Made by a program: the position numbers and the translations under genes. Below, piece by piece: positions 46,498-61,229 of a DNA stretch of 64,000 nt. This stretch comes from Bacteroides sp. 224 (lineage in GTDB: Bacteria; Bacteroidota; Bacteroidia; Bacteroidales; Bacteroidaceae), in contig NZ_QVMK01000026.1 in assembly GCF_010500995.1 (NCBI RefSeq), positions 1 to 64,000 on the forward strand, written 5' to 3'. The notes beneath the pieces are model-generated. The model had not been told where the DNA came from, searched no databases, and saw only the letters and a list, made by a program, of their open reading frames with translations. The first letter of the stretch is position 1; every line of letters starts with the position of its first letter.

Positions 46498-47394
46498 TTA
46501 GAGGTTTAATGCAGTATCCATACCTGTAAGGTGTTCTGATAATTTCAACATATCCCGCCCAATCTTTCCGTTATCCATTCGTACCAATGTTTGGGTTGTA
46601 TTTATATTGGTATGTCCTAACATTCGGGATATTGTTTCAATGGGTACCCCATTCATATAGGTAATAGTAGTCGCAAATGTGTTTCTTGCAACCCTGAAAG
46701 TGAGATTTTTACCAATACCGCAAATATCACCGATTTCTTTCAAATAATCATTCATCTTTTGATTACTTGCTATCGGTAAATTTTGACTGTACTTATTCAA
46801 AATTTTCTGCGGAACTGAAAGCAAAGGGATTATAACAGGTGTATATGTCATGCTCCGCATAATTTTGATAATAGGATTACCGTCTTTATCTGTTTCAAAA
46901 TTTTCGGTTGTTAGCATTGATAAGTCTGAATAATTCAGACCTGTAAAACAGGAAAAGATAAATACATCCCTTACTTGTTCAAGTCTTTTAGTCGAAAACT
47001 TTTTGCTCAAAATAGACTGTAACTCCTTTTCCGAAAGGAAGGCACGAACTACCTCTTGCCTTTTAATCCGGTAATGGCTAAAAGGGTTGTTGGATATAGC
47101 CTGTTTTTCACAGGCTATATTTACAATACGACGGAATAATTCTATTTTCTTGGCGGCTGTGTTTACGTTATATTTGCGAAACTTCATCAGGTAATTTTCA
47201 AAACCTATTATGAAATTGACGTCGATTTCGGACAGCAAGTAATCAACTTTCCCATATCGTTGTTTAATGTAATCAGCGATATAGTTTCTCACCGCTTCAT
47301 ATTTCAGGTAGGTAGATAAGGCTTTAACCTTATATACATTCTTATTATACTCGTCGAACAGAGCTATTACTGTTGAATATTCATTTTTTTTCAT
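46498..47394 (-). pseudogene. Tyrosine recombinase with lost catalytic residues
   Basis: 298 residues with recognisable core-binding (YLKYEAVRNYIADYIKQRYG) and catalytic (FIFSCFTGLNYSDLSMLTTE) domains of Bacteroidales integrases. Active-site positions have changed: HxxRH is FRVARNTFATT, so the His is lost and RH is now RN; the Tyr segment TTQIYAR is TTQTLVR, so the nucleophile is Leu; the beta-hairpin Lys is likely Met (RSMTYTP). LGH is kept. The frame is open throughout, so the protein may be made but should not recombine DNA. It lacks the N-terminal arm-binding part. Confidence 0.75.
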
Positions 47395-47414
47395 TACTAT
47401 TAAAAATTAGTGGG

Positions 47415-47850
47415 TTAAACAGCTAATTGAGTATTGGCTTTTTCCGATTTAAAAGTGAGATTGCCTTCATTTTCAAAAGTATTAGACCAGAGAGATAATT
47501 TTTCTTCTTCTGAAAGGCTATGCCACATGACAGATATACGCTTTAATCTTTCGGGATCATCAGACAGAGTGCCGGGAAGATTAAATAAAGCCATTTTTTC
47601 ATGCAATGAAAGGCATTCAAAAAGTTTATCTAAATTAGATTTAGATTTGATTCGCCTTTCTTCAAGTTTTTCAGCAAAAGAAGCCATATCGTTGCTTACC
47701 TTAACATCGGTAATTCTTGCATAAATTTGGGTAGTTTTTATGTTTGTATGACCTAACATTTTTGATACACTTTCAATGGAAACTCCTTTTGTAAGCGTAA
47801 GAGTGGCGAAAGTGTGTCTTCTAACATGTATAAAAAGCAGTGAATTATAC
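47415..47850 (-). pseudogene. 5'-truncated tyrosine recombinase at the ICE junction
   Basis: Homology to integrases starts abruptly at about 47850 on the minus strand with LFIHVRRHTFATLTLTKGVS and continues IESVSKMLGHTNIKTTQIYA, so HxxRH, GH and the Tyr are intact. A tail of about 75 residues follows. The whole N-terminal two thirds are missing; upstream sequence is unrelated and leads into element 2's integrase region. The best reading is an integrase of element 1 cut by insertion of element 2. Confidence 0.75.
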
Positions 47851-49346: not shown

Positions 49347-50534
49347 ATGCGATCTACATTTAAAATATTATTCTACATAAACCGGGGTAAAGTGAAAAAA
49401 GACGGTACAACCGCCATATTTTGCCGTATTACTGTTGATGGCGAACAAACCGTAATTACAACAGGTATTTTTTGTAACCCTAACGATTGGAAAAGTAAAA
49501 AGGGAGAAGTCAAAGACGAAAAAGCCAACCACCAACTGAAAGCATTTCGTCAGCGCATTGAACAGGCTTATGAGAACACGCTAAAAAAATATGGTGTTGT
49601 CAGTGTGGACTTACTTAAAAATGCGATTCTCGAAATACATACTGTCCCCACTATGCTATTATTGGCGGGCGAGGCGGAACGTGAACGGCTAAGGGTACGT
49701 TCATTGGAAATAAACTCTACCTCTACCTACCGCCAGTCTAAGATTTCTCAAAATAACTTACGGGAATATCTTCTTTCCTTGAAAATGAAAGATATTGCTT
49801 TTACTGATATTACCGAAGAGTTCGGCGAAGGCTATAAACTGTTTCTAAAAGGCAAAGAATATAAGTCGGGACATATCAACCATTGTTTTACATGGCTGAA
49901 CCGATTGATTTACATTGCCGTTGACCAAGAGATTCTCCGGTTTAATCCGATTGCTGATGTGAAGTATGAAAAGAAAGAACCGCCCAAATTACAGCACATA
50001 AGCAGAAATGAATTGAAGCTGATTATGGAAAAGCCGATGCCAAATACGTTTCAAGAGTTGATTCGCCGAGCCTTTATCTTTTCTGCGTTTACGGCACTTG
50101 CTTATGTCGATTTGAAAGGATTGTACCCCCGCCATATCGGACGAACGGCAGAGGGTAAGCCTTTTATCAGAATCCATCGAAAAAAGACACAGGTTGAAGC
50201 CTACATTCCCTTACATCCGGTTGCCGAACAAATCCTGTCGCTCTACAATACGGAAGACGATACGAAGCCTGTGTTCCCATTGCCTAACCGCGACCAGATA
50301 TGGTATTGCATTACTGAAATCGGATTCCTTGCTGGTGTAAAGGGCAATATGAGCTATCATCAAAGCCGCCACACATTCGGAACGCTCTTGCTTTCAGAGG
50401 GTATTCCCATAGAAAGTATCAGCAAGATGATGGGACATACCAATATTTCTACAACACAAGTTTATGCGAAAGTAACAGACCAGAAAATTTCCGAGGATAT
50501 GGATAAGCTGATGGAACGGCGAAAAGCAATGTGA
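49347..50534 (+). CDS. Tyrosine recombinase / integrase 2 of element 2
   Basis: 395 residues. The catalytic domain shows FSAFTALAYVDLKGLYP, YHQSRHTFGTLLLSEGIP (HxxRH near residue 336) and KMMGHTNISTTQVYAKVTD (GH, Tyr near 371). It differs clearly from integrase 1, so this is a recombinase pair and not a recent duplication. It ends ERRKAM; a degenerate copy of these codons and of the following terminator occurs 2.6 kb downstream. Confidence 0.92.
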   Translation: MRSTFKILFYINRGKVKKDGTTAIFCRITVDGEQTVITTGIFCNPNDWKSKKGEVKDEKANHQLKAFRQRIEQAYENTLKKYGVVSVDLLKNAILEIHTVPTMLLLAGEAERERLRVRSLEINSTSTYRQSKISQNNLREYLLSLKMKDIAFTDITEEFGEGYKLFLKGKEYKSGHINHCFTWLNRLIYIAVDQEILRFNPIADVKYEKKEPPKLQHISRNELKLIMEKPMPNTFQELIRRAFIFSAFTALAYVDLKGLYPRHIGRTAEGKPFIRIHRKKTQVEAYIPLHPVAEQILSLYNTEDDTKPVFPLPNRDQIWYCITEIGFLAGVKGNMSYHQSRHTFGTLLLSEGIPIESISKMMGHTNISTTQVYAKVTDQKISEDMDKLMERRKAM

Positions 50535-50580
50535 GGTCATTCAACATTAAGCCCCGGAATCAAATGATTTCGGGGCTTAA
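50512..50580 (+). repeat. Direct repeat, left copy (integrase 3' end plus terminator)
   Basis: Runs from TGGAACGGCGAAAAGCAATG through GAGGTCATTCAACATTAAGC to the hairpin end. The right copy is 53112-53181, with about ten differences in 70 bases. The pair flanks the cargo ATPase gene. Confidence 0.85.
50547..50580 (+). terminator. Terminator after integrase 2
   Basis: TTAAGCCCCG / CGGGGCTTAA stem of 10 bp with a 14-base loop. The same hairpin recurs at 53147-53181. Confidence 0.75.
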
Positions 50581-50760
50581 AATAATATGACAACATGTTA
50601 TCCCACACCTTACAGTAGTCCTTTTTTAAGAGAGGACAAAGGTTCTAAGATAGAAATGCGACTGATTCGCAAGTATTTGGTACTTTTGTGGACGCTAAGG
50701 ACTTATTGAGATAATATTTAGGTTCTGCGTGTTATTTAATAAATAAAAAATAATCTATTT

Positions 50761-53085
50761 ATGAAACCAATTGACATTATTGGAATAAAGAATTTCAGGA
50801 TATTTGATGATGAAAAGGGATTTTTGGAGGAGATCGCCCCAATAAGTGTCCTTACGGGAGCAAACAATGCCGGAAAGAGTTCAATTATTAAGTTTCTCCA
50901 GATGCTTAAAGATAGCATGCAAGGAAATGACACTCCTTTTGATTTAGATTTAACAGCGCAGGAGCATTTATTAGGAGACTTTGATAATGTATTATTTAAT
51001 AAGAAAAATAGGGAAGTTGCTATTTATTTGCCTTTTCTCTTCTTAGGAATAAAAAGCTTTTATATTTCTCTAAAATTTGTAGTGCCTTCTTCCAAAAATT
51101 CATACCATGCAAAATTAAGAGAGATTGAGATTATTGATAAAAAGGATAATTCGAAAATTTTCTCTTTTAAATATCGAGAAGCTACGGATTTAGAAAAAGA
51201 AGCTTATAACGAGAAATTCAAAAACGAACAAGAAGAATATAAAAAAAAGAAAACAAAACAAGATAAAGAGAAAATAGATATTTTTTCATCCTATTTCCTT
51301 TTTCCGCCCACTGAAAATCCATTGGTTGGATATATAGACTGGAATATTAAATTGGATAACCTTAAAAAGTATTTAGAAGAAATATTGGGAGTTTATAAAC
51401 TATATTTAGAAAGCAAGAACAAAAGGATGTGGCTTGAAAGCGCGGATAAGCATCTTGAAAATAGCTGGTTAATCCTTTCGGAGTTCATAAATTCTTTCAA
51501 GGGTGAACTTGATATTGATATATGGGATGATTTTATAAAAAATGAGATTGATAAGAAAGATTCAATTAGTGGTAAAGAACATATTGGAGAAAGAGATTTA
51601 GAAGCAGAAGATTATTTTTTTTCACGTCCAGAGATAGAGGATCTGGTCTATCATAATGCTTTGAAAATTTTGAAAGAAAAATTAAATTGGAATAGTTCTA
51701 AAAATGTTGATGACAAATTTTCAGTTCTTGAGAGTTGTTTTGACGTTAGTTGGAAGAAATTAATTCAAAGAATTAATTCGATAAGCTATTTATCAACCAT
51801 AAGAGAAGAAAATTCACGGATTTATATTGCCAAAAACATCTCCCCATTTATTAAATTATTGAAAGATTATAATTCGAAAGAATTTCAATATTCAAGTTTC
51901 ATTGATAAATACCTAAAAGCTTTTAGAATAGGGAATAGGATTAATGTTAATTACACACAAAAGCATCAGCTCCTCACCGTCTCTGTTACTACTTTAAATA
52001 ATATAGAACGAGACTTAGTTGATTTTGGATATGGCATAAAACAACTTATATTAATTCTGATTCAAATTAGTGTATTAGCAGAAAAAAACAGAAGAACGGT
52101 TGAGGATTATGATGATGAAGGAGAATATATGCATGATATCTATATTCCAAGTATGTTGCTGGTTGAAGAACCTGAAACAAATCTTCATCCCAAGTGGCAA
52201 TCTTTATTAGCAGAAATGTTTGTTGAGGCAAACAATCAATTTAATATTCAGTTTGTAATTGAAACTCATAGTGAGTATATAATAAGAAAGCTTCAAACCT
52301 TAGTGGCAAATAATAAGATAAGCGGAGAGAAAATTAAAATATTCTATGTAAGGCATCCAGAAGATGTAAGTCAAGATAAAAAACAGATCTCCAACATTAA
52401 TATTCAACCAGACGGTAGCATTGATTATCGAATTTTTGATGGAGGTTTTTTTGACGAAAATGATACTCTTGAATTAAGTTTGTTGAATATTCAAAGAGAT
52501 AAGTTTTTGCACGATTTTGAAGAACTAAAAAGGACAAAAGAAGAGAATGAAAATAAGCTATCCGAATTAGAACAAAAAATTGATGACTATACAAACAAAC
52601 TTGACATAAGTGTTTATCAACAAATAATAACTCAACGCTTTGACACCTCTAAACTTTCACCAATTAGTGTAAAATATTTAATATCAGGGCAATTTCTGTT
52701 AAAAAACATCGACACAAGCAGCGATTTTGCCCCAGTTATAATACAATATGGACGTGCCGTTGAAAACGAGTTAAAAGAAATATTCCTAAGTATTGATAAT
52801 TCAAAAAAATGGATGTTAGGGGTAATGCAAGGTTCTTTAGAGAAATTTAAGAATGGCTCAACAACATTACCTCAGTGCAATGCCAGCGAATATGCACAAC
52901 TCCCAATCGAATTAGCAAACAGATTTAAGGCACCAGCAGACTTAAAAATAAACTTAATTGATGACATACGTGAAATAAGAAACTTGGCAAGCCATTCAGG
53001 GCAAACAAATAGCGAACAAGATGCCCTTGATTACATATTGAAGGTTAATGAGTTTATAGACAAATGGATAAATGAGAAAAAATAA
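50761..53085 (+). CDS. AAA (ABC-type) ATPase with C-terminal HEPN-like region
   Basis: 774 residues, AT-rich and Lys-rich compared with its neighbours. The Walker A motif GANNAGKSSII lies near residue 32, Walker B LLVEEPETNLHPKW near 465 and the switch His IETHSEYIIRKL near 500. GGFFDENDTLELSLL near 560 recalls DUF3696 of the AAA_15/OLD-like group. A coiled coil follows (FEELKRTKEENENKLSELEQ). The last 130 residues are helical and hold REIRNLASHSG near 739, an RNxxxH motif as in HEPN ribonucleases. No TOPRIM domain is evident. It stands alone between copies of a direct repeat. An abortive-infection role is plausible by analogy with ATPase-HEPN proteins such as PrrC and RloC, but is inference. 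Confidence 0.8.
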   Translation: MKPIDIIGIKNFRIFDDEKGFLEEIAPISVLTGANNAGKSSIIKFLQMLKDSMQGNDTPFDLDLTAQEHLLGDFDNVLFNKKNREVAIYLPFLFLGIKSFYISLKFVVPSSKNSYHAKLREIEIIDKKDNSKIFSFKYREATDLEKEAYNEKFKNEQEEYKKKKTKQDKEKIDIFSSYFLFPPTENPLVGYIDWNIKLDNLKKYLEEILGVYKLYLESKNKRMWLESADKHLENSWLILSEFINSFKGELDIDIWDDFIKNEIDKKDSISGKEHIGERDLEAEDYFFSRPEIEDLVYHNALKILKEKLNWNSSKNVDDKFSVLESCFDVSWKKLIQRINSISYLSTIREENSRIYIAKNISPFIKLLKDYNSKEFQYSSFIDKYLKAFRIGNRINVNYTQKHQLLTVSVTTLNNIERDLVDFGYGIKQLILILIQISVLAEKNRRTVEDYDDEGEYMHDIYIPSMLLVEEPETNLHPKWQSLLAEMFVEANNQFNIQFVIETHSEYIIRKLQTLVANNKISGEKIKIFYVRHPEDVSQDKKQISNINIQPDGSIDYRIFDGGFFDENDTLELSLLNIQRDKFLHDFEELKRTKEENENKLSELEQKIDDYTNKLDISVYQQIITQRFDTSKLSPISVKYLISGQFLLKNIDTSSDFAPVIIQYGRAVENELKEIFLSIDNSKKWMLGVMQGSLEKFKNGSTTLPQCNASEYAQLPIELANRFKAPADLKINLIDDIREIRNLASHSGQTNSEQDALDYILKVNEFIDKWINEKK

Positions 53086-53211: not shown

Positions 53212-53508
53212 TTACTCCCATGCCTCACGATAGTTCTGTTCCAACAACTTTTGAATATCCGACTCCCGGTATAAGGTTTTACCACCCAGTTGAAGGTAAG
53301 GGATTTTGCCTTTGGTTCGGTATTCCTGTAATGCCCTCCGGCTGATTTTCAACCTTTCCGATACCTGTGCAACGGTCAAAAACCGTTCTCCGCTCAAAGA
53401 CGGCTCATACCCTGTCATTACGGTTTCGATCCTGTCTAACAATCTATCGAGCGAACAGAATAAAGATTTTATCCGCTCATTATCTTTTGTTACAAGCTCT
53501 GTACTCAT
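53212..53508 (-). CDS. HTH protein (excisionase-like), second of pair
   Basis: 98 residues. The C-terminal half is a MerR/excisionase-like helix-turn-helix (FLTVAQVSERLKISRRALQE; GKIPYLQLGGKTLYRESDIQ). The N-terminal half is a helical segment. Two such genes near the integrases match the small DNA-binding (Xis-like) proteins of Bacteroidales ICEs that steer excision. 2 bp after its partner. Confidence 0.83.
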   Translation of the reverse strand: MSTELVTKDNERIKSLFCSLDRLLDRIETVMTGYEPSLSGERFLTVAQVSERLKISRRALQEYRTKGKIPYLQLGGKTLYRESDIQKLLEQNYREAWE

Positions 53509-53510
53509 AT

Positions 53511-53789
53511 CTACTCCGATTTCAGATTGTTGATAAACCGCTCCACATCTTCGGGCTTATAGTACATCTTTCGATTAAACTTCGTATAAGCCAGTTTCCT
53601 TTTATCTCGCAAATACTGTAATGTATTGGGATTGACATTCAGAATAAGACAAACATCCTGATTATCCAGCCAACCGTCAAGTTCTTTGCTTTTGTTCCTT
53701 TCAATCAGTTTTTCGGCTTTCTGAACAAACGATTCAAAACGCCCAAGCATTGCCTCGAAAGTGCGGGCTTCTATATTTATTATCTCCAT
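53511..53789 (-). CDS. HTH protein (excisionase-like), first of pair
   Basis: 92 residues from the ATG at 53789 (MEIINIEARTFEAMLGRFES). A longer frame to 53858 exists, but a -7 box TACCTTTG (53830-53837, minus) lies inside it, so the shorter start is preferred. The HTH is ELDGWLDNQDVCLILNVNPN followed by YLRDKRKLAYTKFNRKMYYK. Expected to bind DNA at the element ends or the integrase promoter. Confidence 0.83.
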   Translation of the reverse strand: MEIINIEARTFEAMLGRFESFVQKAEKLIERNKSKELDGWLDNQDVCLILNVNPNTLQYLRDKRKLAYTKFNRKMYYKPEDVERFINNLKSE

Positions 53790-53829
53790 AATATTTACCT
53801 TTTTCGTTAATACTATGATTACGGGATAA

Positions 53830-53837
53830 CAAAGGTA
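53830..53837 (-). promoter_or_regulatory. -7 box of the HTH gene pair
   Basis: The minus strand reads TACCTTTG, matching TAnnTTTG, and gives a leader of about 35 nt to the ATG at 53789. No good -33 TTTG at standard spacing. Confidence 0.5.
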
Positions 53838-53858
53838 AGTCATTAAAAAACAATACAT

Positions 53859-59837: not shown

Positions 59838-61229
59838 TTACGATACAACTTTACAATAACAGTCCATTAATAATGGGTAATTGGCTCGTCTTAAGTTATC
59901 ATTATTCAATGCGCGATTAAGAATAAAACTTTTGGAAATATGCCAATAACCTTTGCGAGTATTTGCCCACTCCCATGCTTTACGCTTATCAATACCACAT
60001 CGCATGAGGTTCTTAAAGCGAGTCTTTACTTTCTTCCAGCACTTCCAGATACACATCCGTAAGCGACGACGATACCATTCATCCAATTCCTTGAGTTTAC
60101 TCTTTATATCAGCCAACTTGAAGTATTCAAGCCAACCCATAATAAAGTAGCGAAGTGATTCTTTACGCTTTTCATAGCCCATACCATTGCTACGACCAGT
60201 TAAAGACTTCAATTTAGACTTAAACTTCGACATGCTTTTAGGATGAACACTTAAGCGACATGCACCGGACTTCACATAGAAACTATAACCTAGGAACTTC
60301 ATCCCTCGTACGTAACCTACTACCGTCTTCTCGTGGTTTACACGTAGATGAAGAGTATCCTCAATATAGTAAGTAATACTATTCTTCACCCGAGCGGCAG
60401 CACGTTTGCTCTTGCAGAAAATCATACAATCGTCCGCATAACGAACGAAACGATGACCTCGACGCTCCAACTCCTTATCCAGTTCATCAAGCATGATATT
60501 GCTTAAGAGTGGACTTAGCGGACCGCCTTGAGGAACGCCCATGAGCGTTTCCTCATACTGAGCCCCAATCATTACCCCGGCAAGTAGGTATTTATGGATG
60601 AGAGAGATCACACGACCATCCTTAATGCGACGTGATAGGAGTTCTATCAAACGACTATGATTGACCGTATCGAAGAATTTCTCTAAATCCAGGTCTACCA
60701 CATACTTGTAGCCGGAATTGACATGAGTTTGAGCTTTCAGAAGAGCTCCGTGGCAACTACGACCGGGACGGAATCCGTAACTATTGTCATTGAAGATGCG
60801 TTCATAGATAGGTGATAACACCTGTGCTATAGATTGTTGAACAAGACGATCGACTACGGTGGGGATACCCAAGGGGCGTTTCTTGCCACCATCTTTGGGG
60901 ATTTCCACTCGACGAACGGGATTAGGACGATACCGACCTGCTTGTAAGGAGGATAGCAGTTCATCTTTATGAACTTTGAGCCAAGTAAGCAGGTCTTCCG
61001 TATTCATCCCATCAATTCCACCACTTCCTTTGTTTGAAACAACCCGTTTATAGGCGGCGTTCAAGTTGGAAGGAGATAAAATACGCTCCAGTAGCCTATC
61101 TTGTGTAAAATGTACTTCCGTGAGGTTGTTTTCAGTTATCCCCATGTAAGTCTGCACTCCTCGATAGCATTCGGATGCCGTCCTATTCTTCTCGAGCCAG
61201 CTATCACTCTGTGTTGATATTTTCTGCAT
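59838..61229 (-). CDS. ltrA: Group II intron reverse transcriptase/maturase
   Basis: 463 residues. RT motifs: SGGIDGMNTEDLLTWL, RPLGIPTVVDRLVQQSIAQV, YGFRPGRSCHGALL, VVDLDLEKFFDTVNH, GVPQGGPLSPLLSNIMLDEL and RYADDCMIFCKSKRAA (YADD catalytic site). A maturase (X) domain follows (YFIMGWLEYFKLADIKSKLK; WANTRKGYWHISKS). No HNH endonuclease domain is visible, so mobility would use endonuclease-independent priming. The frame is intact. Confidence 0.93.
   Translation of the reverse strand: MQKISTQSDSWLEKNRTASECYRGVQTYMGITENNLTEVHFTQDRLLERILSPSNLNAAYKRVVSNKGSGGIDGMNTEDLLTWLKVHKDELLSSLQAGRYRPNPVRRVEIPKDGGKKRPLGIPTVVDRLVQQSIAQVLSPIYERIFNDNSYGFRPGRSCHGALLKAQTHVNSGYKYVVDLDLEKFFDTVNHSRLIELLSRRIKDGRVISLIHKYLLAGVMIGAQYEETLMGVPQGGPLSPLLSNIMLDELDKELERRGHRFVRYADDCMIFCKSKRAAARVKNSITYYIEDTLHLRVNHEKTVVGYVRGMKFLGYSFYVKSGACRLSVHPKSMSKFKSKLKSLTGRSNGMGYEKRKESLRYFIMGWLEYFKLADIKSKLKELDEWYRRRLRMCIWKCWKKVKTRFKNLMRCGIDKRKAWEWANTRKGYWHISKSFILNRALNNDNLRRANYPLLMDCYCKVVS

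Follow-up and report, generated by a model that had tools for sequence, protein, structure and literature searches.

A predicted single-gene fusion of an OLD/NsnB-type ATPase with a HEPN-like module, a candidate phage-defence protein in Bacteroides sp. 224

During phage infection, PrrC and RloC cleave tRNA, and their ATPase part controls this activity; the HEPN family to which they belong is listed as 'fused to ABC-ATPase' (PMC3710099, Table 1). Menshen includes a DUF262 gene, and another of its components carries a TOPRIM domain of the OLD type (PMC10952713). OLD-ABC ATPases paired with alternative nucleases (HNH, PD-(D/E)XK and PIN RNases) are reported from 594 taxa, and HEPN does not appear among these nucleases (PMC12839542). 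We have analysed a 64,000-nucleotide stretch of DNA from Bacteroides sp. 224 (contig NZ_QVMK01000026.1, positions 1 to 64,000; hereafter the window) that carries a gene, termed P0001, whose product joins an SMC/Rad50/OLD-type ATP-binding cassette (ABC) ATPase head to a C-terminal HEPN-like module. P0001 is likely to be a one-gene abortive-infection protein, in which the ATPase controls a HEPN RNase and which is carried as cargo by an integrase-bearing mobile element.

The open reading frame (ORF) of P0001 begins with an ATG codon and contains no internal stop codons (Table 1). An initial annotation of the window, made from its sequence alone, had assigned an SMC/ABC-type ATPase head to this ORF, and this assignment holds. 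The Pfam families AAA_15 (E value 1.5e-20, residues 4-508) and AAA_21 (8.5e-19) match over their cut-offs, and the protein carries a Walker A motif (GANNAGKS) at residue 33, DFGYGIKQL at 421, a Walker B motif (LLVEEPE) at 466 and ETHSEY at 501. The Walker A motif, Walker B in the form LL[IV]EEPE, ETHSEY and D[FL]GYG..QL are common to P0001 and its three fused homologues (P0002, P0003 and P0004). The DUF3696-like motif named in the same annotation is present as a match to residues 520-568, although at 18.8 bits it stays below the cut-off of 22 in P0001; paralogue P0004 passes this cut-off with 31.9 bits. PADLOC matched 68 families to P0001, with NsnB (PDLC03878, 6.8e-38) at the top, followed by PDC-M55A and AriA. 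We take NsnB to be the ATPase of Menshen, a three-gene system. The match to the NsnB profile, which is 345 positions long, ends at residue 568 of P0001, ahead of the module; the other fused proteins P0003 (1.1e-32) and P0004 (1.1e-40) match it as well.

In a full-length AlphaFold model (13 alignment rows), the ATPase block has predicted local distance difference test (pLDDT) values mostly of 60-95. Its lower-confidence parts are a loop at residues ~441-460 and residues ~161-320, which belong to a variable insert inside the head (residues ~146-330). VIA-align comparison of model residues 1-565 gave Z scores of 15.5-19.0 among the 50 matches listed, which include SMC, Rad50, retron PtuA, retron Eco8 and GajA. 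A phmmer search of P0001 against PDB (E ≤ 1) gave nine matches, eight of them on short ATPase stretches, with a best value of 0.0048; a match to glycerate kinase in this search (residues 666-758, E 0.03) was taken as chance. The linker of residues 566-613 that follows the head is a probable coiled coil, as judged from the predicted model.

The HEPN fold is an up-down bundle of four helices in which a variable insert separates the second helix from the third. The active site is an Rx4-6H motif in which R is followed by a polar residue, mostly N, D or H, and in many HEPN families a further acidic residue lies upstream, usually within Ex3[KR] (PMC3710099). The RNxxxH motif that the initial annotation had pointed out in the C-terminus occurs there as a single copy, at residue 740, against a composition-expected count of ~0.03 in the whole protein. 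To describe the module we used an alignment (A7) of five distinct rows, namely P0001, P0003, P0004 and two proteins with different N-terminal parts, termed G130 and G082; the near copy P0002 was excluded, and identity to P0001 ranges over 23-57% in the remaining four rows. The invariant residues (P0001 numbering) are L646, D655, P658, E668, E670, F722, R740, N741 and H745. All five rows therefore carry R740, N741 and H745, with N741 as the polar residue right after R, and also the upstream acidic residues E668 and E670; the Rx4-6H motif is present in P0002 too. A lysine at position +4 of E668 is found only in the P0001 and P0003 rows (by eye), and the spacing from the E motif to RNxxxH varies in length across the alignment. 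From A7 we derive the module signature D[FY][AS]P...E.E ... RNxxxH.

Two of the five rows were recovered by matches that lie outside the RNxxxH motif. The profile match that found G130 ends at position 1370917 and the motif begins at 1371068, and for G082 the corresponding positions are 24251 and 24453. In both proteins RNxxxH occurs at the expected place and nowhere else, with chance expectations of 0.009 and 0.007 in the chosen tails of G130 and G082 (95 and 115 residues). Conservation of the motif among homologues, which the initial annotation had set beforehand as one of two tests of its proposal, is thus complete in A7, including the two rows found without it. The C-terminus of P0001 is also under purifying selection. 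The ratio of nonsynonymous to synonymous substitution (dN/dS) between P0001 and P0002, a single sequence pair compared without a statistical test, comes to 0.089 in residues 581-774, as against 0.125 in 1-145, 0.188 in 146-330 and 0.153 in 331-580; dN itself is lower in 331-580 (0.032) than in 581-774 (0.042), and dS in 331-580 is unusually low.

Profile searches with the module gave weak matches to HEPN families. Trimmed to the module, the five rows matched 12 Pfam families at E ≤ 1, six of them HEPN families (RiboL-PSP 0.0056, Abi_2 0.0056, ApeA 0.0088, DUF4145 0.042, Abi_C 0.07 and Ymh 0.11) and six without a HEPN name. Abi_C is counted as a HEPN family on our own assumption. The other five stand among the HEPN families of PMC3710099 (Table 1). 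When the same five rows were reversed as a control, four Pfam families matched and none was HEPN. The HEPN matches stem from three of the five rows (P0001, P0003 and G082). With PADLOC, the trimmed rows matched TPR (0.00011), Csx1 (0.0033), Cas13a (0.0053), Csx1/Csm6 (0.0055) and CSX20 (0.013) at E ≤ 1; four of these five families are HEPN-bearing CRISPR effectors, each matched by one row in a search run without a reversed control. Comparison of the module with small DUF4145 and RiboL-PSP alignments by hhalign gave motif-centred scores of 21.8 and 21.7, and reversed profiles gave 8.9-14.8. The DUF4145 alignment was made from six of ten over-cut-off loci (of the nine tried, L096 and L102 had no usable frame and L095 was truncated), and the RiboL-PSP alignment from four of seven loci, one of them under the cut-off.

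Separately, the NCBIfam family HP0729 of Helicobacter matches two of the five module rows (P0001 at 0.0076; best 6.3e-8) and may be a further host of the module. None of the four longer proteins (P0003, P0004, G130 and G082) matched HP0729 at E ≤ 0.01, a result from which we draw no inference.

Full-length homologues of P0001 are few. One, P0002, is found in Bacteroides sp. 519 (locus L001; 86% identity). Among 395 sampled genomes of the phylum, 104 contained ATPase matches and one contained a further full-length homologue (genome G095, 49% identity). The G095 locus (L034, 2181-14755) encodes two fused paralogues, the second being P0004 (956 aa), with two small ORFs between them, one of the paralogues being preceded by a 122-aa ORF that lies 15 nt upstream. 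The pair adjoins a type II CBASS-like operon with nucleotidyltransferase, E1/E2 and JAB genes (by eye), and no integrase was seen by eye among the ORFs of at least 100 aa over 19 kb here. A third module-profile match in G095 (E 4.1e-4, in a 114-aa frame) was rejected, the stretch containing only unrelated ORFs (by eye). In viral contigs, the one full-length match was an identical copy (100%; IMGVR_UViG_2922326829_000002), and one of the scans found 18 more loci with matches confined to residues 1-599. A phage search gave no matches. Twenty plasmid records matched, all within residues 1-581 and none covering 80%, and the C-terminal stretches of P0004 and G130 had no plasmid matches.

A tree of 27 ATPase regions groups the four fused proteins as one clade (support 100/99). 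The branch that holds this clade also holds five unfused NsnB-like relatives (L005, L007, L010, L050 and L051), which end 14-22 residues past the start of the common GFFD motif (residue 562 in P0001). Since all fused proteins fall into this clade and the relatives next to it are unfused and end after GFFD, the module was probably fused once in this ATPase lineage. The initial annotation had pictured the HEPN-like part as replacing the TOPRIM nuclease of OLD. The nearest relatives of the fused proteins in the tree, however, are these five NsnB-like ATPases rather than TOPRIM-bearing OLD proteins, and since they end shortly after GFFD, the fusion is better described as the addition of HEPN at a place where relatives have no C-terminal nuclease. 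In L005 (2284-3306), L007 (1959-3002) and L010 (440-1489), the three unfused relatives covered by the partner-gene comparison, the next gene is separate and encodes a protein of ~340 aa. These partners belong to one family (22-23% mutual identity) that matches nothing in PADLOC and no Pfam family above its cut-off; they have a DRxI[IL]TNY stretch in common (by eye).

The module also occurs on other kinds of protein. G130 (L038, 175-2283) carries it after Eco57I/N6_Mtase and Methylase_S domains, and in G082 (L071, 310-2010) it ends a TPR-like coiled-coil protein whose next gene is SIR2-like (both by eye). The G130 protein, for its part, has a helicase-like neighbour gene (by eye) and weak matches to mad2 (1.3e-15) and MAD5 (7.8e-7) of the methylation-associated defence system. 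These hosts raise the possibility, which we put forward tentatively and at somewhat less than even odds, that the module represents a HEPN family not described before, a plug-in RNA-cutting effector joined to at least three types of sensor (NsnB-like ATPase, DNA methylase/specificity and TPR-like), and that in the ATPase lineage a defence made of two genes became, by one such fusion, an RNase defence made of one.

The location of P0001 matches the island behind an integrase, with presumed anti-phage cargo, that had been proposed for it. Two tandem integrases lie upstream, and the fusion gene is the sole cargo between two direct repeats. The 3′ end of the integrase is repeated just past the stop codon of the cargo, which gives this cargo the look of a discrete cassette of 2.6 kb. 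With 30% G+C, the fusion gene lies below both the window as a whole (39%) and the integrases (42%). A ParB-like gene (by eye) lies on the far side, so that the fusion gene stands between it and the integrases. In L001, a similar integrase relic without the same hairpin follows the cargo, and P0002 is the only ORF of at least 100 aa from integrase 2 to ~1.9 kb downstream.

Relatives of integrase 2 (E ≤ 1e-100) were found in at least 23 of 201 family genomes and at least 35 places, the window's own genome included, with up to nine candidates scored per genome. We compared the downstream stretches at 20 of the 34 other places, and their content is variable. In the second copy in the window's genome (L075, C129), the integrase runs directly into an apparent HTH gene, and the slot is apparently empty. 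PADLOC was applied to ten chosen cargo proteins from four of the 20 stretches. The slot of L088 (G849) holds the known anti-virus system QatABCD (QatA 2.8e-102, QatB 2.1e-16, QatC 8.4e-116, QatD 2.8e-59), that of L076 (G810) an SpbK/TIR-like protein and PDC candidates, and that of L079 (G759) a DpdB-like protein; the L081 slot protein had no PADLOC match.

Table 1. Features of the P0001 locus, in window coordinates
Feature	Coordinates	Strand	Evidence
ATPase-HEPN fusion gene (P0001)	50761..53085	+	intact ORF, 774 aa; full-length homologues at 86% (L001) and 49% (G095) identity
SMC/Rad50/OLD-type ABC ATPase head, residues 1-565	50761..52455	+	AAA_15, AAA_21, NsnB, motifs, structural matches
Helical linker, probable coiled coil, residues ~566-613	52456..52599	+	model helices, low to middling confidence
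C-terminal HEPN-like module, residues 614-774	52600..53082	+	module alignment A7, weak HEPN profile matches, dN/dS 0.09 for 581-774
E668-xxx-K672 (in GRAVENELK), candidate second HEPN motif Ex3[KR]	52762..52776	+	E668/E670 invariance
RNLASH, residues 740-745, predicted RNase active-site motif	52978..52995	+	motif search, A7 alignment
Tyrosine integrase 1, 409 aa	48096..49325	+	Phage_integrase 4.2e-16
Tyrosine integrase 2, 395 aa, directly upstream of cargo	49347..50534	+	Phage_integrase 4.2e-15
Left direct repeat, final 38 nt of integrase 2 with its hairpin	50497..50583	+	repeat comparison
Right direct repeat, integrase 3′-end relic and hairpin, just past cargo stop codon	53097..53184	+	82-86% identical to left copy
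Two HTH_17 genes closing the slot, presumably excisionase-like	53212..53858	-	Pfam

Elsewhere in the window, the stretch 46498-47759 (minus strand, opposite to the paired integrases) contains a further integrase ORF (298 aa, Phage_integrase 5.5e-8) and beside it a 114-aa ORF that resembles an integrase C-terminus by eye. An ORF at 59838-61229 (minus strand) looks, by eye, like a reverse transcriptase of a group II intron.

Because an ATPase is joined to a domain with a HEPN signature, and because the slot elsewhere holds a known anti-virus system, P0001 probably serves as a one-gene phage defence. We count in favour of this reading the conservation of the motif, the HEPN matches of the trimmed rows, the low dN/dS of the module, the single fusion clade, the CBASS-like neighbours in G095, and the QatABCD and SpbK/TIR-like slot cargo.

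Several results weigh against it. No HEPN family matches over its curated Pfam cut-off, whether the proteins are trimmed or full-length. The trimmed rows of P0004 and G130 match none of the HEPN families of Pfam at E ≤ 1; at the same threshold, full-length P0001 shows DUF4145 (0.13) as its one HEPN family, and full-length P0003, P0004, G130 and G082 show none. Longer rows that include the coiled coil (alignment A3, E ≤ 5) matched 28 families, and among the best 25 of these three are HEPN and the rest mostly helical or coiled-coil. The hhalign probability is just 2-5%. Searched against PDB sequences at E ≤ 10, the A7 profile gave two matches, dynactin (1) and a dynein regulatory complex (9.6), and no HEPN chains. 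AlphaFold modelling of the module alone (two-row alignment) reached a mean pLDDT of 46. In the full-length model the module block has values of 36-46, and everything past residue 570 is helical, in blocks of 36-58. Both models show a helical module with the motif near a helix end, at a confidence too low to carry weight, and a Foldseek search with the module model returned a best E value of 1.8, from a prediction too uncertain for judging the fold. The module is rare as well, its profile matching 3/395 class genomes and 1/201 family genomes and a widened profile 4/395 phylum genomes, all counts including the window's own genome. Finally, much of the slot cargo is unrelated to defence, and since several slots carry ABC transporters (by eye) or other genes, the slot is not for defence alone.

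We infer for P0001 a HEPN fold, an RNase activity, an RNA target, a trigger and an arrest of the cell, which would fit together as follows. The NsnB-like N-terminal ATPase would act as sensor and regulator, and ATP-driven pairing of the heads, transmitted by the probable coiled coil, would hold or release the HEPN module. On a cue from the phage, the module would act through R740, N741, H745 and one glutamate (E668 or E670) and cut cellular RNA, probably tRNA or mRNA, without a metal. Growth would then stop ahead of phage maturation, as in PrrC/RloC.

Other explanations can be given for the same gene. The module could be HEPN-related but non-catalytic, serving in RNA binding or dimer formation, with the effect exerted by the ATPase or by another protein. 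We regard this as unlikely. The lysine of Ex3[KR], present in two of the five rows only (by eye), would fit such a loss of activity, but R, N and H are retained in all five rows, whereas loss of the Rx4-6H motif is the mark of HEPN families thought to be non-catalytic (PMC3710099), and the low dN/dS of the module likewise speaks against it. A further explanation, which appears quite improbable, is that P0001 is a subunit of a larger Menshen-like system whose partner is encoded elsewhere or has been lost, the HEPN module being an added backup. The best PADLOC match of P0001 is indeed NsnB, the ATPase of three-gene Menshen, and three of the five unfused members of the branch (L005, L007 and L010) have the adjacent ~340-aa partner. 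The cassette of P0001 nevertheless contains a single gene between its direct repeats, and P0002 is likewise the only ORF of at least 100 aa at that place in L001. In G095 an accessory gene is possible because of the 122-aa ORF just upstream of the homologue.

It is also conceivable, though very improbable, that P0001 has no part in phage defence and works on behalf of its mobile element, perhaps by acting against rival plasmids or elements or by helping to maintain it. The position of the gene between the integrases and the ParB-like gene, with a copy of the integrase 3′ end on either side, would fit such a role. The G095 copies, in contrast, adjoin CBASS-like genes and have no integrase by eye among ORFs of at least 100 aa within 19 kb, and the module is found also on a restriction-modification-type methylase protein and on a protein whose gene neighbours a SIR2-like one (by eye). 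The reading as an ATPase-controlled HEPN RNase, if true, would mean that an ATPase-HEPN lineage was assembled a second time, separately, on an OLD/NsnB-type ATPase. Besides DNA nucleases, this class of ATPase could then control an RNase that is part of the same chain, and the swapping of effectors on one sensor scaffold would be open to direct test. The module on the methylase-type protein would suggest that RNA cutting is a fallback common to several sensors.

Among known systems, P0001 resembles PrrC/RloC in having an ABC ATPase and HEPN in one chain with an Rx4-6H motif, a likeness that holds as far as the HEPN assignment does. AAA_13 is the Pfam model of the PrrC/RloC ATPase, and RloC has a CxxC zinc hook. 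AAA_13 is absent from the five Pfam families matched by P0001 at E ≤ 1 (P0003 matches it at 0.005, under the cut-off), and CxxC is absent from P0001, P0002, P0003 and P0004, with two cysteines in the 774 residues of P0001. The retron PtuA head is structurally similar (9e91_A, Z 17.4, 285 residues, root-mean-square deviation (rmsd) 4.4). PtuA acts together with a retron and an HNH protein encoded separately, in contrast to P0001, whose five scanned neighbouring ORFs are integrases or HTH genes. Menshen is linked to P0001 by NsnB, the best match of its ATPase, and may differ in its DUF262 gene, no counterpart of which was found among those five ORFs.

OLD, GajA and AriA belong to the same ATPase superfamily as P0001 (PADLOC AriA 1e-20, Old 9.3e-14, GajA 1.6e-11), and GajA is also a structural match (8x5i_D, Z 15.9, 275 residues, rmsd 4.0). 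DxD is the signature of TOPRIM. Residues 561-774 of P0001 have no DxD and carry RNxxxH instead, and no TOPRIM family matched at Pfam E ≤ 1. Judged by its sequence, P0001 therefore appears to lie outside both PrrC/RloC, by ATPase family and zinc hook, and OLD, by the lack of any TOPRIM sign. The initial annotation could not name its domain order. We found no description of an NsnB/OLD-HEPN fusion in the literature searched, although a paper on Menshen domain variants, outside that search, may hold one. The joining of an ABC ATPase to HEPN, on the other hand, is on record for PrrC/RloC and for the ERFG_01251 HEPN family, which, compared by description only, is listed as an ABC-ATPase fusion and differs from P0001 in also carrying HEPN/TOPRIM-NTD1 (PMC3710099, Table 1). 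The ABC-ATPase-HEPN fusion as such is already known, and P0001 is a variant of it on another ATPase lineage.

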